Shown here one piece after another: positions 6,914 to 28,872 of a stretch of DNA of 30,449 nucleotides (positions within the stretch are counted from its first letter, which is position 1; each line of letters begins with the position of its first letter). This DNA is from a virus. The notes below the pieces were generated by a model. The model saw only the letters and a program-made list of their open reading frames with translations, made no database searches and was not told the DNA's origin. The stretch covers positions 1 through 30,449 of IMG/VR virus record IMGVR_UViG_3300008122_000018; one strand, 5' to 3'. The position numbers and the translations under genes were made by a program.

Positions 6914-6941
6914 AAAATAGGACCATGTGTGGTCCTATTTT
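6914..6941. terminator. Bidirectional terminator between convergent genes
   Basis: Eleven-base stem (6914-6924 with 6931-6941) of AAAATAGGACC type with loop ATGTGT, T-rich on both strands. It overlaps the last codons of the leftward cREC gene and ends the rightward 5536-6829 unit. Confidence 0.85.
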
Positions 6942-7420
6942 TTATTAATAAAGTCCATAAAATTTTTATGATAATGTTTAATATTATTTCCACCAACTGG
7001 GTTTTTAGTATGAACAAAAATATTCAAATTTTTACATTGAATATCATTATCCATAATATAATCACATAACCACTTTAAACAATCATATCCGGTGTTTTCA
7101 CTGCCGTCATCATTGAAATCTTGAATATCATGATCAAATGAAAAATAAGTATTATTCCAATCTTTAATATATGGAATAATATATTTGAATTCTGCCAATG
7201 TTCTTACAGTAAATTCTGTATGGAAGTCAGGATATTTAATCCATGTTACATCTTTTAAATCGCGCTCATCATCTAAAAATATTAAATTTTTCATTGTAAG
7301 GTCTTCAAAATATGGGGCAAGGCCACAACCTGATGCTTTTTCAGCTCGGGCGTTTAATTCTTCAAATGACATATCTTCAATTTTAGCCAAAAATCGTTTT
7401 GCTAAATCTGCGTCAAACAT
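6935..7420 (-). CDS. cREC domain protein (cyclic-phosphate processing receiver)
   Basis: 161 aa. Residues 43-158 match the cREC type of receiver domain: LDDER (49-53), FDHDIQDF (95-102), TGYD (110-113), and VHTKNPVGGNN (136-146). In response regulators the acidic residues hold a metal and a phosphate; cREC proteins lack the regulator setting and have been proposed, from gene neighbourhoods, to handle cyclic phosphates in RNA repair or nucleotide signalling. Residues 1-42 are a small extra domain with SFEELNARAEKASGCG. ATG 7420 has an AGGA site. First leftward gene after the head region. A macro-domain gene on the same strand at 15815 could belong to the same chemistry. Fold assignment is good; substrate is unknown. 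Confidence 0.8.
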   Translation of the reverse strand: MFDADLAKRFLAKIEDMSFEELNARAEKASGCGLAPYFEDLTMKNLIFLDDERDLKDVTWIKYPDFHTEFTVRTLAEFKYIIPYIKDWNNTYFSFDHDIQDFNDDGSENTGYDCLKWLCDYIMDNDIQCKNLNIFVHTKNPVGGNNIKHYHKNFMDFINKK

Positions 7421-10137: not shown

Positions 10138-11439
10138 TTATTTTTTCATTGCGATACGTTGGCTATCGGTTTTGACAATCTTTTTATAATTGTCTTGTAA
10201 GTCTTTTAAGCGAGTAACTGCTTTTTCACGCTCACTCACACCCTGTTGCTGAATTTGAATTACTTCATTAACAGTTTTAATTAATGTACTTTGTACATAT
10301 TCTAACGTTGATACGTCAATAACTGAACGTTGGTTTGCTTTAGCCGTACTTACAGAGTTGGTGTGCAATAAGTCCGCATTACGTTTAAGAATTTCATTTG
10401 TAGCGTCATCAATAGTATTCGCTAATTGAACACTATTCTTTTGCTCATTCAATGAAATCGCAAGTGTAATCTGGTTTTTCCATGCTGGAATCGTGATATT
10501 TTTGATTGCATAGAACTTATCAACAAGCATCAAATTGTTTGCTTGAATAATACGAATCATTGGCAATGTCTGTAATGCTGATTGCTGTAATACATGAAGA
10601 TCGTGTAAACGCTTTTCTAAGTTATTACAAACATGGTTCAAGTCATAAATGCGTTGAATTACATTTTGATCTTGTTGATTGCCATTAGATAAATCTTTAA
10701 TTTCGTCTTTAAGTTCTTGTAACTTTAAATGACCAGCTGCAATATGTAGACCTAATGAACGATAATCATTGTTTACATTGTCAAACATATTATCGAGTAA
10801 GTGGACACGATTAGTAAGGCCAGATTGATTTGTTTCAATTTCACTTACAAGCGCTTTAATTTGTTCTTCTGTAGTATTAAATTTAGTTAAGAAATTATTA
10901 CGAGCTTTTTCAACAGATTTAAATAATCCACCAATAATTGGTAAGCGCGAAAATGAGCTTTGTTTACCAATAAAGTTACTGCTATTAATACCTTTAGCTA
11001 CATGAATAACTTGGTTTAATTTTTCGCCGGTTTGATCAATGTCTTTATTGTTTACTAAACCCAAAATTTCTGATGTACAGTCATTTGTAGCTGATGAAAT
11101 ATCTTTACCATATTCAGCAACTGCTAATGCATCCATTGGACCTAATTTATTTTTTAGTTCCATTACATCTTTTACATCAGCGTCGGTCAAGCCAAGATCA
11201 ACCAAATTCAATTTTGATGCAGCAAGATCCAAATTTTTAACTGCCGGCAATGCGGGTTCTTCATTTACCGATTTAAGAATTTGATTATTTACATCTTGCT
11301 GAATAGCAGATGGCTCGTCTGCAACAATAACGTCCACTTTACCAGTCTCAGTCTGAGACATAGCTGCACGCTCTTTCAATAATTTTTCTAGTAAAGCGTC
11401 GGTTTGTTCTTTATTAAGATCGTTAATTGATGATACCAT
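10138..11439 (-). CDS. telA: TelA-family (toxic anion resistance) protein
   Basis: 433 aa with the layout of the TelA/KlaA family: a variable, acidic N-terminus (1-150), LPIIGGLFKSVEKARNNFLTKF near 170, a long helical middle with LHIAAGHLKLQELKDEI, then LPMIRIIQANNLMLVDKF from residue 292, IPAWKNQ at 317-323, NEILKRNADLLHTNSVSTAK and a final VIDVSTLEYVQSTLIKT...IQQQG helix. Bacterial relatives are linked to tellurite, cell-envelope antibiotic and metal stress, but the biochemical role is unknown. All-helical, cytosolic. It sits in a coupled leftward operon with a diverged TelA-like gene and has its own promoter at 11474-11506. The family call is confident; a phage function is unknown. Confidence 0.9.
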   Translation of the reverse strand: MVSSINDLNKEQTDALLEKLLKERAAMSQTETGKVDVIVADEPSAIQQDVNNQILKSVNEEPALPAVKNLDLAASKLNLVDLGLTDADVKDVMELKNKLGPMDALAVAEYGKDISSATNDCTSEILGLVNNKDIDQTGEKLNQVIHVAKGINSSNFIGKQSSFSRLPIIGGLFKSVEKARNNFLTKFNTTEEQIKALVSEIETNQSGLTNRVHLLDNMFDNVNNDYRSLGLHIAAGHLKLQELKDEIKDLSNGNQQDQNVIQRIYDLNHVCNNLEKRLHDLHVLQQSALQTLPMIRIIQANNLMLVDKFYAIKNITIPAWKNQITLAISLNEQKNSVQLANTIDDATNEILKRNADLLHTNSVSTAKANQRSVIDVSTLEYVQSTLIKTVNEVIQIQQQGVSEREKAVTRLKDLQDNYKKIVKTDSQRIAMKK

Positions 11440-11510: not shown

Positions 11511-13046
11511 TTACAATAAATTATAAACTTTGTTAAATTCATCATTATTGATTTTCATATTCATTTCAATTGCAGGTTTTAAGATTTTTTCAATCGCTGT
11601 AAACTTGTCAATCAAAATACCAATATTGTTTTTAGCTAGCTCATATTGCATTGCTGTTGTACGTGACAATGTTTGAGCCGCCAATAAATCATTTTTTCGT
11701 CGTAATAAACGTTGCTTATCACTATCCGAATATTGATCATCTTGCATATAAGATTCTAATAATTTGATATCTTCATCAAATTGTGTATGTAAATCTTTTA
11801 ATGAATCATATAATTTAGCAAATGATTCATATTGATTGGATAATACAGTTACTAAATTACTTCCTTTGTCTAATAAATTTTCGAAGTCAATAACTGCAAT
11901 TGTAATATTGGCCTTAATTTCAATGTCTGATTTAAATATTTTGCCCCAAAAGCCAATAGTAGAATACTTTTTATATTTTTCTACTGCAGATTTAAGATTT
12001 ACAATTACACTACTCATTCTTTCCAGGTTATCACTAGTAATTTCCATGGTAATTGTATTCATTTTATCGATAGTTGTCACACCAACTGCAAAAATACCAG
12101 TATTTGTATCCATATCTATTTCAGCCTTTTCTATTTGTTCATCAACAACTGTATTGTCGGGCTCTTTAAAAGTACCCATTAAGTTGTTATATTGTAGACT
12201 GTTTATAATAAGTTCGTACATACGCTGGCTAACATAAAACTTAATTATTCTATCAAATAATTTTTTATGTTGCTCATTTAGCATAAAGTAGTCATATTCA
12301 ATACATCTTAATATAGAAAATCTAATAGCAGATAAATCAGTAGATCCACCTGTCATGTATATAAATGGAAGATACTTATTTTGATTTAAAATAGATTCTA
12401 TCTTATCTGGTCTAATGTCATCATTTAAAAATTCAGATATAAAGTTACAGTAATCGATGAGGCCTTTATAGTCATCATTTACATAAAATCTTAAATTAAT
12501 GATATCATTAATAATAGCAATATGTTTATGTAAATCCCTACTTCTAGTTTGTCGTAAATTTTGTACATATCTTGAAATATATTTTGCATTATAGCCGAAG
12601 CCACTAATTGTATCTAAATTTTTAAATATGTCATATAGTGAAAGTGTGTTATACGTGTGAAAATATGAAATTGCTTCCGTGGTAGGCGTTGTTTTATACA
12701 TTGGCAAACTTAAAACAAAATCTTTGCTTATAAGTTTTGAAAATATATGATATGTATAAATTTGATTAATATAATTGCGATATATTGTATTATTGACACG
12801 ATTTAAATCTTCTGAACTAGTCGTTAAACAATATTTTAAAATTAAAGCCATACGTTTATGTAATGAGCTATTATCATCATACGAAATCGGATTTACAACA
12901 GCTGCATAAATATCACCTACGGATGGTTTTATATCATCCGATATCGAATTAAAATGATATTCAATTTTGTCAGTCAAATAAAAGTTTTCATCACGAATAT
13001 CGTAATGTATAAAAGATAGAAAATAAAAATATACATGCATATTCAT
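11511..13046 (-). CDS. TelA-like paralogue with novel N-terminal domain, C-terminally shortened
   Basis: 511 aa. The C-terminal 190 residues repeat the TelA pattern: GFWGKIFKSDIEIKANI (compare GGLFKSVEKARNN in TelA), a helical middle, then from about 448 LRRKNDLLAAQTLSRTTAMQ, NNIGILIDKFTAIEKI and KPAIEMNMKI, aligned with TelA ANNLMLVDKFYAIKNITIPAWKNQITL. The protein stops about 15 residues later, so the last 110 residues of TelA are missing. The IPAWKNQ signature is lost (KPAIEMN). Residues 1-310 are a Tyr/Ile-rich domain that I do not recognise. ATG 13046 has an AAGG site and follows the 56-aa gene by 10 bases. I infer a partner of TelA from a duplication, now diverged. Confidence 0.72.
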   Translation of the reverse strand: MNMHVYFYFLSFIHYDIRDENFYLTDKIEYHFNSISDDIKPSVGDIYAAVVNPISYDDNSSLHKRMALILKYCLTTSSEDLNRVNNTIYRNYINQIYTYHIFSKLISKDFVLSLPMYKTTPTTEAISYFHTYNTLSLYDIFKNLDTISGFGYNAKYISRYVQNLRQTRSRDLHKHIAIINDIINLRFYVNDDYKGLIDYCNFISEFLNDDIRPDKIESILNQNKYLPFIYMTGGSTDLSAIRFSILRCIEYDYFMLNEQHKKLFDRIIKFYVSQRMYELIINSLQYNNLMGTFKEPDNTVVDEQIEKAEIDMDTNTGIFAVGVTTIDKMNTITMEITSDNLERMSSVIVNLKSAVEKYKKYSTIGFWGKIFKSDIEIKANITIAVIDFENLLDKGSNLVTVLSNQYESFAKLYDSLKDLHTQFDEDIKLLESYMQDDQYSDSDKQRLLRRKNDLLAAQTLSRTTAMQYELAKNNIGILIDKFTAIEKILKPAIEMNMKINNDEFNKVYNLL

Positions 13047-15814: not shown

Positions 15815-16258
15815 TTAAACATAATAAACGACAATTTCTAAATCTGGTGTAACTTCATTAATAATTTGTTGAATTGTAGCCCAATCGCCGCCAGCAAGAC
15901 CTGCACCAATACGAGGTATACATGCAGTTTTGCCTTTAAAGTCTTCATTTAATAATGCGAATCCTTTTCGAACAGCGTCATAATCTACTTGAATTTGATG
16001 TGTACCAAAATCATATTGTGTATATAAGTTAATTACAGTACCAAATTCTGTTACAGCCATTGAATAAAGACCAAGCTTATTTTTTGTACCAATTGGAGTT
16101 TTACAATCTGCTTGATAAGCATTAGGGTATCTGTATTTTACAATAGCCGCGATTCCCCCTCCCATGGTATGGAAGCAATTACAACCATGTACTAGTATAT
16201 CATATTCTTTCTTTTCAAACGGTACAAATAAGTTTTCTTTAATTTCAGCAACGATCAT
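15815..16258 (-). CDS. Macro-domain protein (ADP-ribose-binding, phosphatase-like)
   Basis: 147 aa from ATG 16258, chosen because an AGGA site lies 8 bases before it (a TTG at 16276 is in frame but contains that site). Macro-domain signatures: DILVHGCNCFHTMGGGIAAIV near residues 19-39, with the Asn and Gly-rich loop that hold ADP-ribose, and IPRIGAGLAGGDW near 113-125, the phosphate loop. This version resembles the Poa1p-like ADP-ribose-1''-phosphate phosphatases seen in several T4-like phages. Likely role: removing the phosphate from a tRNA-processing by-product or reversing ADP-ribose signals in host defence. Fold is confident; substrate not. Confidence 0.88.
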   Translation of the reverse strand: MIVAEIKENLFVPFEKKEYDILVHGCNCFHTMGGGIAAIVKYRYPNAYQADCKTPIGTKNKLGLYSMAVTEFGTVINLYTQYDFGTHQIQVDYDAVRKGFALLNEDFKGKTACIPRIGAGLAGGDWATIQQIINEVTPDLEIVVYYV

Positions 16259-16277
16259 GTGTTTTTCCTGGACCAAC

Positions 16278-18413: not shown

Positions 18414-18438
18414 TCGATTGAGAATGACAGGAGCAAAC

Positions 18439-19686
18439 ATGAATAATCAAATTTCAGATTTGAAATTTCAAATAACACAACTGCAGCAATCTATTAAAGA
18501 TTTAGATGATGAGTGTGAACGATATTCAGCAATGGAACAAGCCGTAAAGATTGTTTTAAACGGTGGATATGGAGCATTAGGAGCAGCTGCATTTAGATGG
18601 TATGACGAAACAATTGCGGAAGGTATTACTGCAACAGGCCGTGTCGGAATACAATATATTACTAAAAAAATTAATGAATTTGTAAATGAGAAAGCCGGAA
18701 CAGCCGGCATCGACTATGTTGTAAGTTCTGATACAGATTCAGTTTATTTTGAAGTTGACGCAATTGTAAAACATAGATGGCCAGAAGTTACCGATAAACA
18801 GCAAATTACTGATTTAGTAAATGAATTTGCTGAAAATGAAGCTGGACCATATATTGATCAATGCTATAAAGATCTTTCCGATTATCTAAATTGCGACGTA
18901 AATTTATTAGATATGAAGCGTGAAGCAATTGCGGATACATTTATTATCAGGGCTAAGAAAAATTATATCATGCGAGTATTTGATAATGAAGGAATTCGTT
19001 ATGCTGATCCGTATTATAAAATGATGGGTATTGAAGTTGTTCGTACATCGCACCCACAAATGATTCGTGACGCTTTAGAGGATACTTTAAAGATGGTAAT
19101 TGAAGGATCAGTTGAACAAGTTCGATCATATGTAAAAGAATTTAAAACTAAATTCATGAGTTCACCATTAAATCAAATTGCTGCACCCCGTGGTATATCT
19201 GATATTACCAAATATATGAATAGTGAAGATTATTCAATTAAAGAATTTGAATATGTTACTAATGAATTTGGTAATAAAGTTAAATCTAAAATTACTATTC
19301 CAATTCATGTAAGAGCAGCTATTAATTATAATTACCTAGTTAATAAATATAAGTTATCAAATAAATTTGAATTTATTAAAAACGGTTCTAAAATTAAATT
19401 TTTGCCATTAAAAGAGCCTAATCCAATTAAGAGTCATGTAATTGGATTTATTGATAATATTCCATCTGAATTTGGCTTAGACGAATATATTGATAAAGAA
19501 GCTCATTTTAATAAAATGTTTATTAGTCCGTTAGAAACTTTTTTAATTTATAACGGATGGACAATCCAGGAAAATACATTATTAGATATGTTTGGTGGAC
19601 AAGAAATTGATATGGCTACTGCAGCAATTAATACAAAGAAAAAGACAATAAAGAAAGTCGATAAAAAGACAACTTCATTGTTTTAA
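18439..19686 (+). CDS. 43: DNA polymerase gp43-like, C-terminal part (split gene)
   Basis: 415 aa equal to the last part of T4-type family B DNA polymerase. ATG 18439 has GGAG 5 bases upstream. A helical leader (1-30) is followed by motif B, with Lys37, Asn41 and Tyr44-Gly45, and by motif C SSDTDS with catalytic Asp98 and Asp100. Then come AKKNY (compare KKRY), MMGIEVVRTSHPQ, the thumb with FHVR-like IPIHVRAAINYNYLV and LPLKEPNP, and near the end NTLLDMFGG plus TTSLF, clamp-binding-like. Exonuclease, motif A and the first finger helix are absent. The matching N-terminal part starts at 29766, 10 kb downstream, so the break is in the tip of the fingers. Followed by uvsX, as expected for gene 43 in T4 order. 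The enzyme must assemble from two chains. Confidence 0.93.
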   Translation: MNNQISDLKFQITQLQQSIKDLDDECERYSAMEQAVKIVLNGGYGALGAAAFRWYDETIAEGITATGRVGIQYITKKINEFVNEKAGTAGIDYVVSSDTDSVYFEVDAIVKHRWPEVTDKQQITDLVNEFAENEAGPYIDQCYKDLSDYLNCDVNLLDMKREAIADTFIIRAKKNYIMRVFDNEGIRYADPYYKMMGIEVVRTSHPQMIRDALEDTLKMVIEGSVEQVRSYVKEFKTKFMSSPLNQIAAPRGISDITKYMNSEDYSIKEFEYVTNEFGNKVKSKITIPIHVRAAINYNYLVNKYKLSNKFEFIKNGSKIKFLPLKEPNPIKSHVIGFIDNIPSEFGLDEYIDKEAHFNKMFISPLETFLIYNGWTIQENTLLDMFGGQEIDMATAAINTKKKTIKKVDKKTTSLF

Positions 19687-23050: not shown

Positions 23051-23485
23051 TTAACACAAAGCACGTAACACTTTGAGTTGTGATGCTAAGATACGTGGAG
23101 CACCATCACCTAACTGGATTGATTTAGCAGTTGCAATTGTTGATACAAACACTAACGCGCCATTGGATGCGGCATCATAAATACCGAGTGAAACTACTGT
23201 TCCCCAGTTACCAGTTGGGACTGGAAAGATTAATTCAGCTGTATTGTTATATTCCTGGTTAGTACCGGTTGGTCCAGTCCAAGTACCAGCAACGCGAGGC
23301 AACTCTACACGTGAATATCCTGTACCTGACGCCGAAACCTCTACGCCGCCAGTACCATTTAGGTTAGGTGTTGTAGTAAATAACGCAAGCCATAAGCTTG
23401 ATGGCATTGAAGGCATCGCGACACCTTTTAAAAGGTAGTCGAGGAAATTCTGTGAGGTTGTATAAGAGAGCGTACTAGAAGGCAT
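23051..23485 (-). CDS. Tail-fibre/virion-associated small protein, probably acquired
   Basis: 144 aa (MPSSTLSYTTSQNFLDYLLKG). Layout: an N-terminal helix, LWLALFTTTPNLNGTGGVEV, a GYSRVELPRVAGTWTGPTG region, FPVPTGNWGTVVSLGIYDAASNGALVF and an LGDGAPRI loop. This is the pattern of a widespread small phage virion protein often called tail fibre or structural protein (xWYxALHTxxPT... followed by ...hxxhxhxDAxxxGxxL). It is all beta after the first helix. The gene alone points left among rightward genes, and its codons contain far more G and C than its neighbours, so it is probably a recent import. AGGA site before ATG 23485. Confidence 0.62.
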   Translation of the reverse strand: MPSSTLSYTTSQNFLDYLLKGVAMPSMPSSLWLALFTTTPNLNGTGGVEVSASGTGYSRVELPRVAGTWTGPTGTNQEYNNTAELIFPVPTGNWGTVVSLGIYDAASNGALVFVSTIATAKSIQLGDGAPRILASQLKVLRALC

Positions 23486-24139: not shown

Positions 24140-25165
24140 ATGATGAATATTTTAAATTTATCGGCTAAAGATATTTTAGCGATTAAAATATTTTCTGAAA
24201 TGTTCACCGGAACAGAAGATGAAAATAAAAAAACATATCGTATGCTTTTAAAAAAATGGCATCCAGATATGAATAGTACGGATACAAGTGATGTATTTGT
24301 ACATATTACACAATTGTATGATAGCTTATCTATTAATATAATTCCAAAATCGGTAGAGATTAACGGCAAGTCATATGATTATATATATGATGTTGTAAAA
24401 GATTTATATACAATTTACTATACTGATAATGGTACAGGATTTTTAATTAAGTTCAATCAAAAAGCAGATGGACTTAAACAAAATTATAAATCTAATTTAA
24501 CTAAGCTTCAATCTTTATTGAAAAATCATAAATTTGAAGATCGTTATAAAGATTTGTTATCTTGTAATATTTATGAAAATAAAGAATTTGCAAAAATCAG
24601 AGTTCCGGCAGGTTATGTTCCTTTAAACCTGGCTTTAAAATATATTATATCTTTTAAAGATTGGAAAATTTCAGCATACATTATTTCGCGTTTATATGAT
24701 ACAGCGTTATTGTATAAAAATGCAGGCCTATCATGTATCGGATTTGATCCTGATTTTATCTTTTTAGATACTAAAAAACATCAAATTATTGATTTATCAG
24801 CATTATTTTTCTCTACTGAGAGCAATAAATCTTTAAGCCTTGCACTTACTCCAATGCAAGCATCCGCATTTATTAAAGATGACCTACAAAATAAAAAGTG
24901 TAGTGATGATTCTATTAATAGTATGATTAATTCATTAGGCTTAATGTTATCAGGTGATTTAAATCGATTTGGTAATATTAATGTATTAGATGATTCTGCA
25001 AATAAAGAAATGGTTAAAATTATTAGTGGTATTGGTATTAATGTTCCAATTCGCAATAATTATGAAGCATGGCAAACTAAACTAGTACAACGTATTTTTA
25101 ATGAAAGATCTTTTTATAAAAAAGAAATTGTATTTGGTGATTTAACAAAATATATTGGTAATTAA
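24140..25165 (+). CDS. J-domain plus kinase-like (probable pseudokinase) protein
   Basis: 341 aa. Residues 10-65 form a J-domain: YRMLLKKWHPDMN with the HPD triad at 41-43, then FVHITQLYDSL. J-domains bring Hsp70 (DnaK) to a target. After a YDYIYDVVKDLYTIYY stretch, the rest has the outline of a protein kinase fold: NGTGFLIKFN, with a Lys in the VAIK position, a helical lobe, and GLSCIGFDPDFIFLD-x-KKHQIIDLSAL where kinases have HRDxxxxN and DFG. The catalytic Asp of HRD appears replaced and DFG is DLS, so catalysis is doubtful. A related J-domain/kinase-like pairing occurs near vWA and Ter-type genes. It is followed by a small gene and then the vWA gene. J-domain confident; kinase part moderate. 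Confidence 0.72.
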   Translation: MMNILNLSAKDILAIKIFSEMFTGTEDENKKTYRMLLKKWHPDMNSTDTSDVFVHITQLYDSLSINIIPKSVEINGKSYDYIYDVVKDLYTIYYTDNGTGFLIKFNQKADGLKQNYKSNLTKLQSLLKNHKFEDRYKDLLSCNIYENKEFAKIRVPAGYVPLNLALKYIISFKDWKISAYIISRLYDTALLYKNAGLSCIGFDPDFIFLDTKKHQIIDLSALFFSTESNKSLSLALTPMQASAFIKDDLQNKKCSDDSINSMINSLGLMLSGDLNRFGNINVLDDSANKEMVKIISGIGINVPIRNNYEAWQTKLVQRIFNERSFYKKEIVFGDLTKYIGN

Positions 25166-25166
25166 T

Positions 25167-25481
25167 ATGAATATTCAAATTGATGAAATTATTAAAGCAT
25201 TAAATTATATCTCTGAAAGTACACGGGATATTAAAGCTTTTAACTTTAATAAATTTATTTCAATTTATCAACGACCAACAATTATGCCTCGGGAAGGTGT
25301 ACTAGTTGGACAATATGAAAAATGGTGTTATAAAAAGATTTATTTTTTATCATGCTTTGGAATTAATATCCAATTGTTTTCATATTGGGATGATGAAGCT
25401 GTATTTACTGAACAACATGCGAATGATATTTTAAATCATATCCGCAACACTCTTGAAGAAATTAAACACATTTATTTTTAA
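25167..25481 (+). CDS. Hypothetical protein between J-domain and vWA genes
   Basis: 104 aa from ATG 25167 (MNIQIDEIIKALNYIS), one base after the J-domain gene stop, so probably coupled. Contains REGVLVGQYEKWCYKKIYFLSCFGINIQLFSYWDDE and a C-terminal helix. No recognised domain. Likely a third member of the unit. Confidence 0.62.
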   Translation: MNIQIDEIIKALNYISESTRDIKAFNFNKFISIYQRPTIMPREGVLVGQYEKWCYKKIYFLSCFGINIQLFSYWDDEAVFTEQHANDILNHIRNTLEEIKHIYF

Positions 25482-25488
25482 AATCGCG

Positions 25489-25517
25489 TGTACAAATATA
25501 AAATTTTATAGCATTAT
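25489..25517 (+). promoter_or_regulatory. Early-type promoter for vWA gene
   Basis: TGTACA plus AATATAAAA (25489-25503), 17-base spacer, CATTAT (25512-25517), 42 bases before ATG 25560. A TGTACATA box lies again at 25521. Confidence 0.65.
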
Positions 25518-25559
25518 ATTTGTACATACTTTAAAACAAACGTTACGAGGAGTAACAAT

Positions 25560-26480
25560 ATGGGTGGTTCATCTTTTAATTATGATGATTGGCAACAGTC
25601 TTCAGCAACGACTAAAACAAAATCAGTTAATCAAATTTATAGCTCATCTCTACAAGATGATGTAAATCCACTATTAATCAAAAATGGTGTGCGCGAATCA
25701 TGTGATAGCGATGCCAATCCTAATTCAACACCTATTATTATTGGCCTTGATGCAACTGGTAGTATGCAAGCTATTCCAGAATACATGATCAAAACTGGTC
25801 TTGGTGAAATGTTTAAATCTATTTATGAACGTCAACCAGTAACAGACCCACAAGTTTTATTCTGTACAATCGGTGACGTAATTGCAGGCGATCCTGCACC
25901 ATTGCAAGTCGGCCAATTTGAATCTCAATGTGATCTTCTCATTGATGGACTAAAAAAATTCTGGCTTGACGGTTGTTGGGGTGGTGGTAACGATAAAGAA
26001 AGTTATGACCTACCATATTATTTTGCAATTAACAAAACCCGTACCGACGCATTAATTAAACGCGGCAAAAAAGGTTATCTAATTACTATTGGTGATGAGC
26101 CACCTCCACAATTATTAAAACGCGAACATATTGATAAAGTATTTGGTGGGCGAGCTGAAGGTGATTTTACATTTGAACAATTAGTGACACAGGTCCGTCG
26201 TTCATATATTCCAATTCATATTGTAATTGAACAAGGTAGTCATGTCCAATCATATGGATTAGATCATGTATATAGCCCATGGAAACGTTTATTGGGTGAA
26301 GATGCGATCGTTTGTAGCGATTATACTAAATTGGCTGAAATTATTACTAGTATTTTACAAGTAAAAGCTGGTATTAATACTAACGATGTAATTAATAGTT
26401 GGGATGGTAGCACTTCAGTTGCGGTTGCGAAAGCAATTGGTTCACTTACAACAACACAAGATGCAAGCGTTGTATTTTAA
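25560..26480 (+). CDS. von Willebrand factor A domain protein
   Basis: 306 aa with a GAGGAG site. An N-terminal Ser/Thr/Gln-rich part (FNYDDWQQSSATT, then RESCDSDANPNSTP) leads into a vWA domain: IIIGLDATGSM, where D64-x-T66-x-S68 is the metal-binding site, CTIGDVIAGD, FWLDGCWGGGNDKES, KKGYLITIGDEPPPQLL, and IPIHIVIEQG. vWA domains bind partners through a metal ion. This subfamily is unassigned, but vWA proteins (TerY and relatives) act with kinases and TelA in bacterial Ter systems. It lies after the J-domain/kinase-like gene, and TelA is 13 kb away on the other strand. Fold assignment confident; role inferred. Confidence 0.88.
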   Translation: MGGSSFNYDDWQQSSATTKTKSVNQIYSSSLQDDVNPLLIKNGVRESCDSDANPNSTPIIIGLDATGSMQAIPEYMIKTGLGEMFKSIYERQPVTDPQVLFCTIGDVIAGDPAPLQVGQFESQCDLLIDGLKKFWLDGCWGGGNDKESYDLPYYFAINKTRTDALIKRGKKGYLITIGDEPPPQLLKREHIDKVFGGRAEGDFTFEQLVTQVRRSYIPIHIVIEQGSHVQSYGLDHVYSPWKRLLGEDAIVCSDYTKLAEIITSILQVKAGINTNDVINSWDGSTSVAVAKAIGSLTTTQDASVVF

Positions 26481-26543: not shown

Positions 26544-26840
26544 ATGATTACACAATTCTTTAGATATAGAAAAATATTTGTTACATTAGGGACAGAACGC
26601 TTTTGTATTATTATTCCATTTTATGAAAATAATACATATCTTGCAATGGATCCAACTGGTCAAATTTTTACCTATGACTCACCCCCTGTATTCGATAAAT
26701 CAGCAAATCATTATATAATTGATGAAAAGAAACACTCGTACGATTTAGTTGCTACATATAATGGTGACGCATCTAAATTTGTAAATAATATTATTGCAAT
26801 TGCAGACAAGCAATACGAATATAATTTTGTGGAAACCTAA
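26544..26840 (+). CDS. Hypothetical protein, paralogue of 27316 gene
   Basis: 98 aa. Shares with the 27316-27612 protein the pattern [LV]AM-x2-x-G-x-IF-x-YDS-x-P followed by a basic loop and a strand (LAMDPTGQIFTYDSPP here). Strand-rich, possibly a small beta domain. No known function. Weak AAGTGG site upstream. Followed by 26843 after 2 bases. Confidence 0.62.
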   Translation: MITQFFRYRKIFVTLGTERFCIIIPFYENNTYLAMDPTGQIFTYDSPPVFDKSANHYIIDEKKHSYDLVATYNGDASKFVNNIIAIADKQYEYNFVET

Positions 26841-26842
26841 TT

Positions 26843-27205
26843 ATGAGACTAGAACTAGAATCTGTTATTAATACCGATCGTTTCATTGGTAAAAAAGTTT
26901 ATGTTTGTGCTTATCAAGAGCCCGACTTACATAGTCGCCGAGCTGTACAAAATGTTCATGTAACAGAATGTATTGTTGCGCCAATGGATGAATATTTACA
27001 AAACGCATCCACCAAAAAAACTATTTATCATAGTAAAAACGCTTTATTAAAGTTAACAAAAACTAGTCGTGTTATTTATAATAATCCAATTCAGCCATAT
27101 GCTTATAATGCATCATATCATACATGGACCAAAACAGGCGGCATCAATATATTTGATGATTTAGATGAATGTAAGGAACATTATATTTCTTTACTAAAAA
27201 GTTAA
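26843..27205 (+). CDS. Hypothetical protein
   Basis: 120 aa (MRLELESVINTDRFIGKKVYVCAY). Strand-rich start, Arg-rich DLHSRRAVQNVHVTEC, and a GGINIFDDLDECKEHYISLL end. A recurrent pattern in short phage proteins is a final FDDLDECKEHY-like helix, but no function is known. Coupled to the previous gene. Confidence 0.6.
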   Translation: MRLELESVINTDRFIGKKVYVCAYQEPDLHSRRAVQNVHVTECIVAPMDEYLQNASTKKTIYHSKNALLKLTKTSRVIYNNPIQPYAYNASYHTWTKTGGINIFDDLDECKEHYISLLKS

Positions 27206-27315: not shown

Positions 27316-27612
27316 ATGATTAAATCTACTTATAAGCACACGTTAACTCTTATTGTGGGTGACGAAGAATTAGAAGTAAATATTCCTAATTTTGAATATC
27401 CATATTTTGTGGCTATGAATAAAAATGGCGATATTTTTATGTATGATTCACAACCAGCGCGAGCAGGCTATGATCATAATCCGATTAACTGTAAGCGACA
27501 TATGCATATTGCAAGTGTGATTGAGGTCGATACACAATTATATATCGATCATTGTATTGAAGTTGATATGTTTGATACAATTGTTGATTTTAATAGTGGT
27601 ACATCTCGATAA
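27316..27612 (+). CDS. Hypothetical protein, paralogue of 26544 gene
   Basis: 98 aa (MIKSTYKHTLTLIVGDEELEV), AAGGGA site. Contains FVAMNKNGDIFMYDSQPARAG and a following basic CKRHMHIASVIEV strand, matching 26544 over the middle 40 residues. The pair probably arose by duplication. Single-gene cassette between two promoters. Function unknown. Confidence 0.62.
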   Translation: MIKSTYKHTLTLIVGDEELEVNIPNFEYPYFVAMNKNGDIFMYDSQPARAGYDHNPINCKRHMHIASVIEVDTQLYIDHCIEVDMFDTIVDFNSGTSR

Positions 27613-27678: not shown

Positions 27679-28872
27679 ATGAACGTTATTGTAATTGGTG
27701 CTAATTATGGCGACGAAGGTAAAGGTAGAACTGTTGATTTTTTAGCACAGACGCTTAAAATTAATCAAGATAAACAATTGATAAATGTACGATTTTCTGG
27801 TTCAAATAATGCGGCCCATACAGTATGGCATAACGGTAAATCATTTGTATTTCATCTATTAGGCGCCGCATCATTCCGCGGATTACCTACATATTTGAGT
27901 CAACATGTTGTAGTTGATTTTGTTGCACTAGAAACAGAAATTAATGAATTTGAAAAAATTACTGGTCATAAACCAGTCGTTTATGTCGATCCGAGTTGCC
28001 GTGTTAATTTGCCATACGATGTAATGAAAAATCGTATTAAAGAAATTCTTAAAGGCGCTGATAAACATGGTTCAACCGGTAATGGTCTAAATGAAACTAT
28101 TGATCGGCATCAAAGTTTTCCAATTTTAGCTGGCATATTTGAACTTGCATTACCTATGTTAGTTCTCACACAAAATCATTTTCAACAATTTGCTGAAACT
28201 GAGTTAAAGGATATTGAATTAGAACATCAACATAAAGACTTTATTGAATTTTTATGTGAGAAAAATTCAGTATCTTTTATTTTTGAGAAGATTAAAAATA
28301 TCATTAATAATCATCCTCAAATTATATGCTATACGCCTGAACTTAAAAATTATAATTGTATCTTTGAAGGGAGTCAAGGACTCGCTTTAGATGAATATAG
28401 CAAATTTTTCCCTCATGTAACTCGTACTCGTACAGGTACAACAAATGTAATAGATTTATGCCGTGAGCATGATATTGTAATTGACAATGTATATTATGTA
28501 TCTCGTCCATATTTCAGCCGTCATGGAGCTGACAAATATTTTGAAGAGTTTGACCGAATTAGCGACGTTTATAATATTGTAGATGAAACTAATATACCAA
28601 ATGACTGGCAAGATGATTTAAAATTTGGTATTTTAAATGTAACTGAAATGGATGAACGTATTAATGACGACTTTAAAGTTATTAAAAATTTATTCCCAAA
28701 TGTAAATAAGCAGCTGGTGTTTACTTGTATGGATCAATGCGGCGGTGGGTCTGGTATTTATATTCGTAACGGTCGACTATATCAAACAAGCGATCTAATA
28801 AATTCATTAAATTTATATTATAGATTTAGTGATATTAAACCAATATTTTTTAACAATAAGGAAAATATATAA
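27679..28872 (+). CDS. Adenylosuccinate-synthetase-like enzyme (PurA/PurZ superfamily)
   Basis: 397 aa. PurA joins IMP and aspartate using GTP; the related phage PurZ acts on dGMP for the Z (2-aminoadenine) pathway. Visible: GANYGDEGKG (7-16) with the base Asp12 and Lys15, NNAAHT with His47, HGSTGNG (130-136, PurA IGTTGRG), FEGSQG, FPHVTRTRTGTTN, YYVSRPYFSRHGAD and FTCMD (PurA TKLD). The Arg-rich aspartate loop of PurA (TTGRxRRxG) is replaced by NDWQDDLKFG. Asp12 is kept, whereas known PurZ has Ser or Thr there. So the nucleotide may be IMP- or GMP-like and the amino acid partner may differ. Single TAATG overlap with the next gene. Confidence 0.85.
   Translation: MNVIVIGANYGDEGKGRTVDFLAQTLKINQDKQLINVRFSGSNNAAHTVWHNGKSFVFHLLGAASFRGLPTYLSQHVVVDFVALETEINEFEKITGHKPVVYVDPSCRVNLPYDVMKNRIKEILKGADKHGSTGNGLNETIDRHQSFPILAGIFELALPMLVLTQNHFQQFAETELKDIELEHQHKDFIEFLCEKNSVSFIFEKIKNIINNHPQIICYTPELKNYNCIFEGSQGLALDEYSKFFPHVTRTRTGTTNVIDLCREHDIVIDNVYYVSRPYFSRHGADKYFEEFDRISDVYNIVDETNIPNDWQDDLKFGILNVTEMDERINDDFKVIKNLFPNVNKQLVFTCMDQCGGGSGIYIRNGRLYQTSDLINSLNLYYRFSDIKPIFFNNKENI

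Follow-up and report, generated by a model that had tools for sequence, protein, structure and literature searches.

In a 30,449-nt stretch of viral DNA (IMG/VR record IMGVR_UViG_3300008122_000018, positions 1 to 30,449; hereafter the window), three genes on the plus strand encode a 341-aa protein joining a J-domain to a kinase-like fold (24140..25165; hereafter the J-kinase), a 306-aa von Willebrand factor A (vWA) protein with a D-x-T-G-S-type metal-dependent adhesion site (MIDAS; 25560..26480) and a 397-aa PurA-like enzyme of the adenylosuccinate synthetase superfamily (27679..28872; Pfam Adenylsucc_synt, 3e-36; phrog_1211, 8.6e-43). The window is a piece of a large myovirus-type phage encoding a gp23-type major capsid protein, a head maturation protease, UvsX and a family-B DNA polymerase, and has a near-identical 381-kb relative (contig IMGVR_UViG_3300011242_000001), whose J-kinase and vWA protein are 100% and 99% identical to the window copies. 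The original prediction, made from the letters of the window alone, had placed the J-kinase and vWA genes together with a small coupled protein, and all three open reading frames (ORFs) are indeed present, at 24140-25165, 25167-25481 and 25560-26480. As a three-gene set, this grouping held for the J-kinase and vWA genes and failed for the small protein (104 aa from its ATG; 25167..25481, plus strand), an ORFan assigned to no family, the phmmer matches of which are restricted to the window, L001, L007 and L008, with no relatives outside the near-identical 381-kb contig. Judged by these searches, the small protein is not a conserved component of the module, and the grouping had overlooked PurA (27679-28872).

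Searches for proteins related to the vWA protein gave matches in 206 GenBank records of phages, in at least 169 stretches of IMG/VR and in at least 561 stretches of bacterial genomes; the bacterial carriers belong to the Clostridia, Proteobacteria, Cyanobacteria-related lineages, Bacteroidota, Acidobacteria and others. Gene order was compared across 80 IMG/VR loci from the scan and the best 80 of the at least 561 bacterial relatives, searching the flanks with hidden Markov models and restricting the counts to loci with enough flank. The comparison reveals a conserved order of J-kinase, vWA and PurA on one strand: PurA has the orientation of vWA and lies 3' of it in 79/80 phage loci and in 75/77 loci of bacteria, and the J-kinase gene is found immediately 5' of vWA in 41/81 phage and 61/74 bacterial loci, with median gaps of 17 and 20 nt in the bacterial operon. 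Unbiased clustering of the neighbouring ORFs at 82 phage loci yielded no non-module family in more than 16 loci, the next two families occurring in 16 and 11. Both of these, a 125-aa family (16 loci; e.g. L058, 9351-9734) and a Met-rich 240-aa family (11 loci; e.g. L002, 6222-6935), occupy the J-kinase slot directly upstream of vWA.

The counts of vWA and PurA genes in phage GenBank records run parallel (188/189 for Mycobacterium, 10/10 for Rhizobium and 6/6 for Vibrio), and in Mycobacterium phages Sebata and Tonenili the gene 5' of vWA is annotated as a Ser/Thr kinase, with a PurA-like gene one to two genes 3'. Pairwise distances of the three module proteins correlate across 99 loci (r 0.88-0.90), a correlation that in part reflects the shared ancestry of the carriers. 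In a PurA phylogeny, the module copies form a single branch apart from housekeeping PurA (support 100), within which phage and bacterial copies are interleaved, with 13 changes between bacterium and phage, at least 6 of them forced. This interleaving indicates that the unit has crossed between bacteria and phages several times. There is hardly any room for doubt that the J-kinase, vWA and PurA genes constitute a conserved unit, and the original prediction was right to treat the first two as belonging together. What the window contains is a phage version of this conserved operon of three genes, which is exchanged between phages and bacteria. At one phage locus (L029, 3403-5925), an intein that contains a LAGLIDADG homing endonuclease splits the module PurA, and a Ro60-like TROVE and vWA protein lies within 8 kb of the module in six phage loci (e.g. 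L002, 11354-12862).

The J-domain of the window J-kinase matches Pfam DnaJ with an E-value of 4.6e-6 and 27.1 bits, slightly below the 27.8 cut-off; its helices span residues 9-64 of the predicted model, and its HPD motif (H41-P42-D43) is invariant across a 38-row alignment of the J-kinase family. No Pfam kinase match was obtained for the window protein. Its AlphaFold model (predicted local distance difference test, pLDDT, 84) nevertheless matches protein kinases over residues 73-331, with a Z score of 17.6 (230 aligned residues, 3.4 Å; Pim1, model residues 74-330). The kinase fold is thus real, and the original prediction withstood the check it had set for itself at residues 70-260. The top Foldseek match of the model is vaccinia related kinase 3, a pseudokinase, and a related protein of Mycobacterium phage Sebata matches Pfam Pkinase (1.7e-9) and bears an HPD-containing J-domain at its N-terminus. 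In the 107-member J-kinase family the HPD motif is kept in 41/41 phage and 56/66 bacterial rows, 9 of the remaining 10 being alignment gaps at the motif. The HRD and DFG Asp residues, on the other hand, are replaced in nearly all 107 aligned members, including the window copy, which reads GLSCIGFDPDF and IIDLSAL at these sites (family consensus, HN(A/S)I and GGWWY). With HPD kept and the HRD and DFG Asp residues lost, the straightforward interpretation is that the J-domain is functional and the kinase inactive, a combination that we regard as very probable; catalysis by the kinase domain is almost certainly lost. Such a fusion of a J-domain with a pseudokinase would be unusual.

The vWA protein of the window matches phrog_2971 (2.2e-38), with no match to any Pfam model, vWA-TerF-like included, and its confident structural model (pLDDT 93) adopts an integrin beta-I-like vWA fold (Z score 16.1). 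The MIDAS motif (D64-x-T66-G-S68) and a downstream G178-D179 are conserved in the family. The protein is thus, by its model and motif, a vWA domain with a predicted metal-binding MIDAS, as had been anticipated from the sequence.

Module PurA retains the fold of ordinary PurA (PF00709) and its P-loop-like GDxGKG, together with the catalytic D13, H41 and Q224: in an active-site alignment of 150 module members, numbered according to Escherichia coli PurA (Q224 being position 226 in the reference row), these three residues and K16 are conserved at 100%. It differs from ordinary PurA in forming a separate clade beside the housekeeping copy, which is also present in all six tested bacterial genomes bearing module PurA, and in several binding residues. 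The aspartate-binding loop TTGRxRR (R303, R305) is replaced by Q-G-gap-x-L/F-R; the Arg aligned with R303 is missing in 150/150 members and the R305 position is Leu, Phe or Ile. R143 is also lost, the guanine-recognition K331 is replaced by Cys or His, and N38 becomes Gln in 97% of the 150 members. The KAYTTRVG segment acquires an invariant Arg and an invariant His, K changing to Arg and V to His in all members. In E. coli PurA, R303 contacts free aspartate and the IMP ribose (PMC8342488). With the catalytic residues kept and the aspartate loop and K331 replaced, module PurA looks active but re-specified, and an active enzyme with changed specificity is the probable reading of these alignments.

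The surroundings of the operon direct attention to nicotinamide adenine dinucleotide (NAD). A protein of the NrtR type (Nudix plus winged helix) adjoins the operon in 36/80 bacterial loci, mostly divergently and beside the J-kinase or vWA gene, and all four NrtR neighbours sampled contain Pfam NUDIX and NrtR_WHD domains. Between the divergent genes lies a common palindrome of the TTGTTATTTGCAAAATACAA type, a predicted operator scoring 16.2 bits against 9.6 ± 0.2 in shuffled sequences, a margin that is somewhat flattered because 25 random starts were used for the real sequences and 8 for the shuffles, and because some of the loci are close relatives. No NrtR was seen in the window. Where NrtR proteins control NAD genes, their effectors are ADP-ribose or NAD, but other members of the family sense sugars (PMC4666351). 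NAPRTase is encoded in three bacterial loci, and isochorismatase-family genes are found among the bacterial neighbours. In phage loci, NadM-Nudix lies within 8 kb of vWA in six cases and NadV in eight, several of them directly adjoining vWA, and a NadV/NAPRTase-family gene is present somewhere in 11/28 module-bearing phage records, including the 381-kb relative of the window. The phage NAD salvage genes (NadV/Nampt and NadM-Nudix) share a cluster with the module at about ten phage loci; they encode different enzymes, however, and the module mostly occurs without them nearby. Taken together, the NrtR and NadV/NadM surroundings are suggestive of NAD, without proving it, and we consider a link between the operon and NAD likely. 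As a separate observation, the phage carrying this putatively NAD-linked module also encodes a macro-domain protein (15815-16276, minus strand; PF01661, E-value 4.9e-5), the fold of which binds ADP-ribose.

The explanation that best accommodates these results overall, and for which belief and doubt are about balanced, is a purine-nucleotide ligase that would be coupled to DnaK, organised by the vWA protein and linked to NAD. The PurA paralogue would be its only catalytic subunit, a GTPase-type ligase activating a 6-oxopurine nucleotide; with its amine and phosphate pocket apparently altered, its product would differ from the ordinary adenylosuccinate that arises from free aspartate. The vWA protein might hold the complex or its target through the metal-dependent adhesion site, and the pseudokinase could act as a non-catalytic docking module, with the J-domain tying the complex to DnaK so that Hsp70 would assemble, deliver or remodel it. 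These DnaK-adaptor and vWA-scaffold roles are proposed tentatively, and we lean slightly against them. In bacteria the operon would be under an NrtR-type repressor and would consequently respond to an NAD-linked metabolite, and phages may carry it as an accessory nucleotide/NAD-metabolism module, sometimes inside a NadV/NadM salvage cluster. A more specific version, which we regard as decidedly unlikely, is that a nucleotide related to NAD or ADP-ribose (e.g. a deaminated, hypoxanthine-type dinucleotide) has its purine half re-aminated or tagged by the PurA paralogue in a previously undescribed, vWA-organised and Hsp70-coupled system shared by bacteria and phages. If true, this would constitute a new route to repair or rewrite NAD in stress or infection.

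Several observations weigh against a ligase of this kind. No copy diverges more than that of the window: its PurA sits on a very long end branch, its J-kinase is only ~12-24% identical to relatives, and its vWA and PurA genes are separated by three small plus-strand genes (26544..26840, not conserved; 26843..27205; 27316..27612) known from the ORF list only. The J-kinase gene is missing from about half of the phage loci, many of which have another small gene in its place, so the J-domain part is dispensable there. Regarding the NAD link, members of the NrtR family need not sense NAD metabolites, as illustrated by BtAraR, which senses L-arabinose (PMC4666351); there is no NrtR in 44/80 bacterial loci, and only about ten phage loci have NadV or NadM nearby. 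Lastly, no biochemistry was found in the literature for any of the three module proteins.

Other explanations were weighed against the DnaK-coupled ligase. The name of phrog_1211 and those in several GenBank records ('2-aminooxy adenylosuccinate synthetase') suggest a PurZ-type enzyme making 2-aminoadenine for Z-DNA, and PurZ (2-amino-adenylosuccinate synthetase; S-2L, phiVC8) is likewise related to PurA, encoded by phages and devoid of the canonical aspartate/ribose Arg, the loss of R303 having also been discussed for PurZ (PMC8342488). This identity is nonetheless extremely improbable, and was ruled out on three grounds: Asp13, replaced by Ser in PurZ (S23 in S-2L; PMC8342488), is kept in 150/150 module enzymes; the best PDB matches are bacterial PurA (3hid, 2.7e-58), with PurZ far weaker (7odx, 3.8e-10); and the NCBIfam PurZ model NF038379 scores 42 bits against a cut-off of 300. 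Because PurZ has Ser at Asp13 and bacterial PurA provides the best structural relatives, module PurA is not PurZ; it is nearest to bacterial-type PurA, whereas the PurZ lineage is archaeal-type (PMC8342488). Full conservation of D13, K16, H41 and Q224 would also suit plain metabolic help, in which an extra adenylosuccinate synthetase feeds AMP/dATP and the J-pseudokinase and vWA protein are dedicated folding factors; nucleotide-metabolism genes are common in large phages, and a Hsp70/J pairing fits a folding factor. We find this unlikely, given that the family as a whole has neither the aspartate loop nor the guanine-recognition Lys, other residues standing in their place, and that a J-pseudokinase plus a vWA protein makes an odd folding kit for an enzyme that normally needs none. 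NAD metabolism is a known battleground, and the operon might instead be a bacterial anti-phage defence with purine/NAD nucleotide depletion or modification as its effector step, the phage copies serving as counter-defence or decoys. Its patchy spread over many phyla with repeated bacterium-phage exchange, the contested nature of NAD metabolism and the NadV and NadM genes of phage loci, a few of which also have NADAR-like and RNA-repair-like genes, would agree with such a role. Yet eight module proteins, five of them bacterial, gave no match in PADLOC-DB, the 125 neighbouring proteins revealed no recurrent defence family, and the copies found in phages are complete systems of three genes, their active sites intact, and not inhibitors, leaving defence with a low probability.

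The original prediction had gone further, proposing that the J-kinase and vWA genes form, with TelA and a TelA paralogue, a two-operon system of the Ter type (TerY-P-like or TelA) that serves in stress or defence. TelA itself is real (10138-11439, minus strand; Pfam TelA, 4.7e-80), but the supposed paralogue, an adjoining 511-aa protein (11511-13046, minus strand), shows only a weak TelA-like C-terminal stretch (pairwise BLASTP, E-value 0.009) and has no Pfam TelA match. Nor did the early-type promoters invoked for the locus stand out, with 38 sigma-70-like sites against 41 ± 6 in shuffles. The proposal has some appeal, in that TelA lies ~13 kb from the module both in the window and in the 381-kb relative, and vWA and kinase-fold proteins are also paired in the TerY-P triad, which, as Anantharaman et al. 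(2012) are cited in PMC11090510, comprises a TerY-like vWA, a PP2C phosphatase and a Ser/Thr kinase. Like the module, the triad brings together adjoining vWA and kinase-fold genes as a mobile unit with a proposed regulatory or scaffold role. The module, however, lacks PP2C, its dead kinase is fused to a J-domain and not to a zinc ribbon or OB fold, and its third gene is a PurA paralogue. No TerD family member was detected in the window or the 381-kb relative by a search that did detect the positive control, Caulobacter phage CcrColossus, and no PP2C was found in either with PF13672, the sole PP2C model used. Above all, TelA is present in only 2/22 module-bearing phage records, and module vWA or PurA in 0/10 TelA phages sampled from 119 (with Rhizobium phage RHph_TM30 as positive control). 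Because TelA is distributed independently of the module, an outcome that the original prediction had itself named as refuting, the Ter/TelA reading fails, and the unit is not one for tellurite resistance. We discarded the link on this distribution, examined in both directions, and, with TerD and PP2C missing and the kinase devoid of catalytic residues, a split Ter-type system is very improbable. The window phage has TelA and, separately, the J-kinase/vWA/PurA module.

A genuine phage Ter cluster also looks different. The gp219-222 genes of CcrColossus (L179, 170840-174496) encode TerD, a TerC/DUF475-like membrane protein, a TerF-like vWA and TelA, and constitute a genuine, complete-looking phage Ter cluster. 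What the window shares with this cluster is a phage-borne vWA and the presence of TelA. The CcrColossus vWA belongs to a different family (Pfam vWA-TerF-like, PF10138, 8.8e-31) and has no meaningful similarity to the window protein (pairwise BLASTP, E-value 0.08), the relative of the window lacks TerD, and the window TelA is unlinked to the module. Other TelA phages carry similar-sized genes beside TelA, as CcrColossus does.

In the open-access literature, with subscription papers outside the scope of the search, no paper was found that brings these proteins together. The unit, with its NAD context, therefore appears to be undescribed as a system, in agreement with the original prediction, which knew of no described phage system of the kind, and its single genes are known by name. 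The same three genes occur in the same order in Mycobacterium cluster C1 phages (Sebata gp260, 'Ser/Thr kinase'; gp261, hypothetical; gp263, PurA-like), where they are annotated singly, with no paper found treating them as a system, and where neither the J-domain nor the loss of the catalytic Asp can be guessed from the name 'Ser/Thr kinase'. In mycobacteriophage records such as NC_041993, the gp260 'Ser/Thr kinase' starts with a J-domain and lacks the catalytic Asp, and the gp263 '2-aminooxy adenylosuccinate synthetase' has retained Asp13, unlike PurZ, and is a different enzyme; names of the gp260 and gp263 type are likely misannotations. The operon is present in more than 200 sequenced phages, among them the cluster C1 mycobacteriophages, which have been studied intensively, and in at least 561 bacterial contigs, its parts being filed separately as 'kinase', 'hypothetical' and '2-aminooxy adenylosuccinate synthetase'. 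Recognising the unit corrects these three annotations (the kinase is dead and bears a J-domain, the second protein is a vWA protein, and the PurA paralogue is distinct from PurZ) and directs attention to NAD metabolism, in a form testable in Mycobacterium smegmatis phages and in culturable Clostridium and Massilia.

Elsewhere in the window, Rfam and tRNA scans gave no match. The family-B DNA polymerase gene (18418-19686, plus strand) covers only the C-terminal half of the protein (profile positions 496-851 of 856) and appears to be split and out of order: in the 381-kb contig the exonuclease part lies ~12 kb downstream, at 73801-74253, the window equivalent being at ~30292 (past 30290). A cyclic-phosphate processing receiver domain (cREC, PF20274) is encoded at 6935-7420 on the minus strand. 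A phrog_240 head/decoration-type gene (23051-23485, minus strand), at 42% GC and on the opposite strand, stands out from surroundings of 25-28% GC and seems to have been acquired recently.

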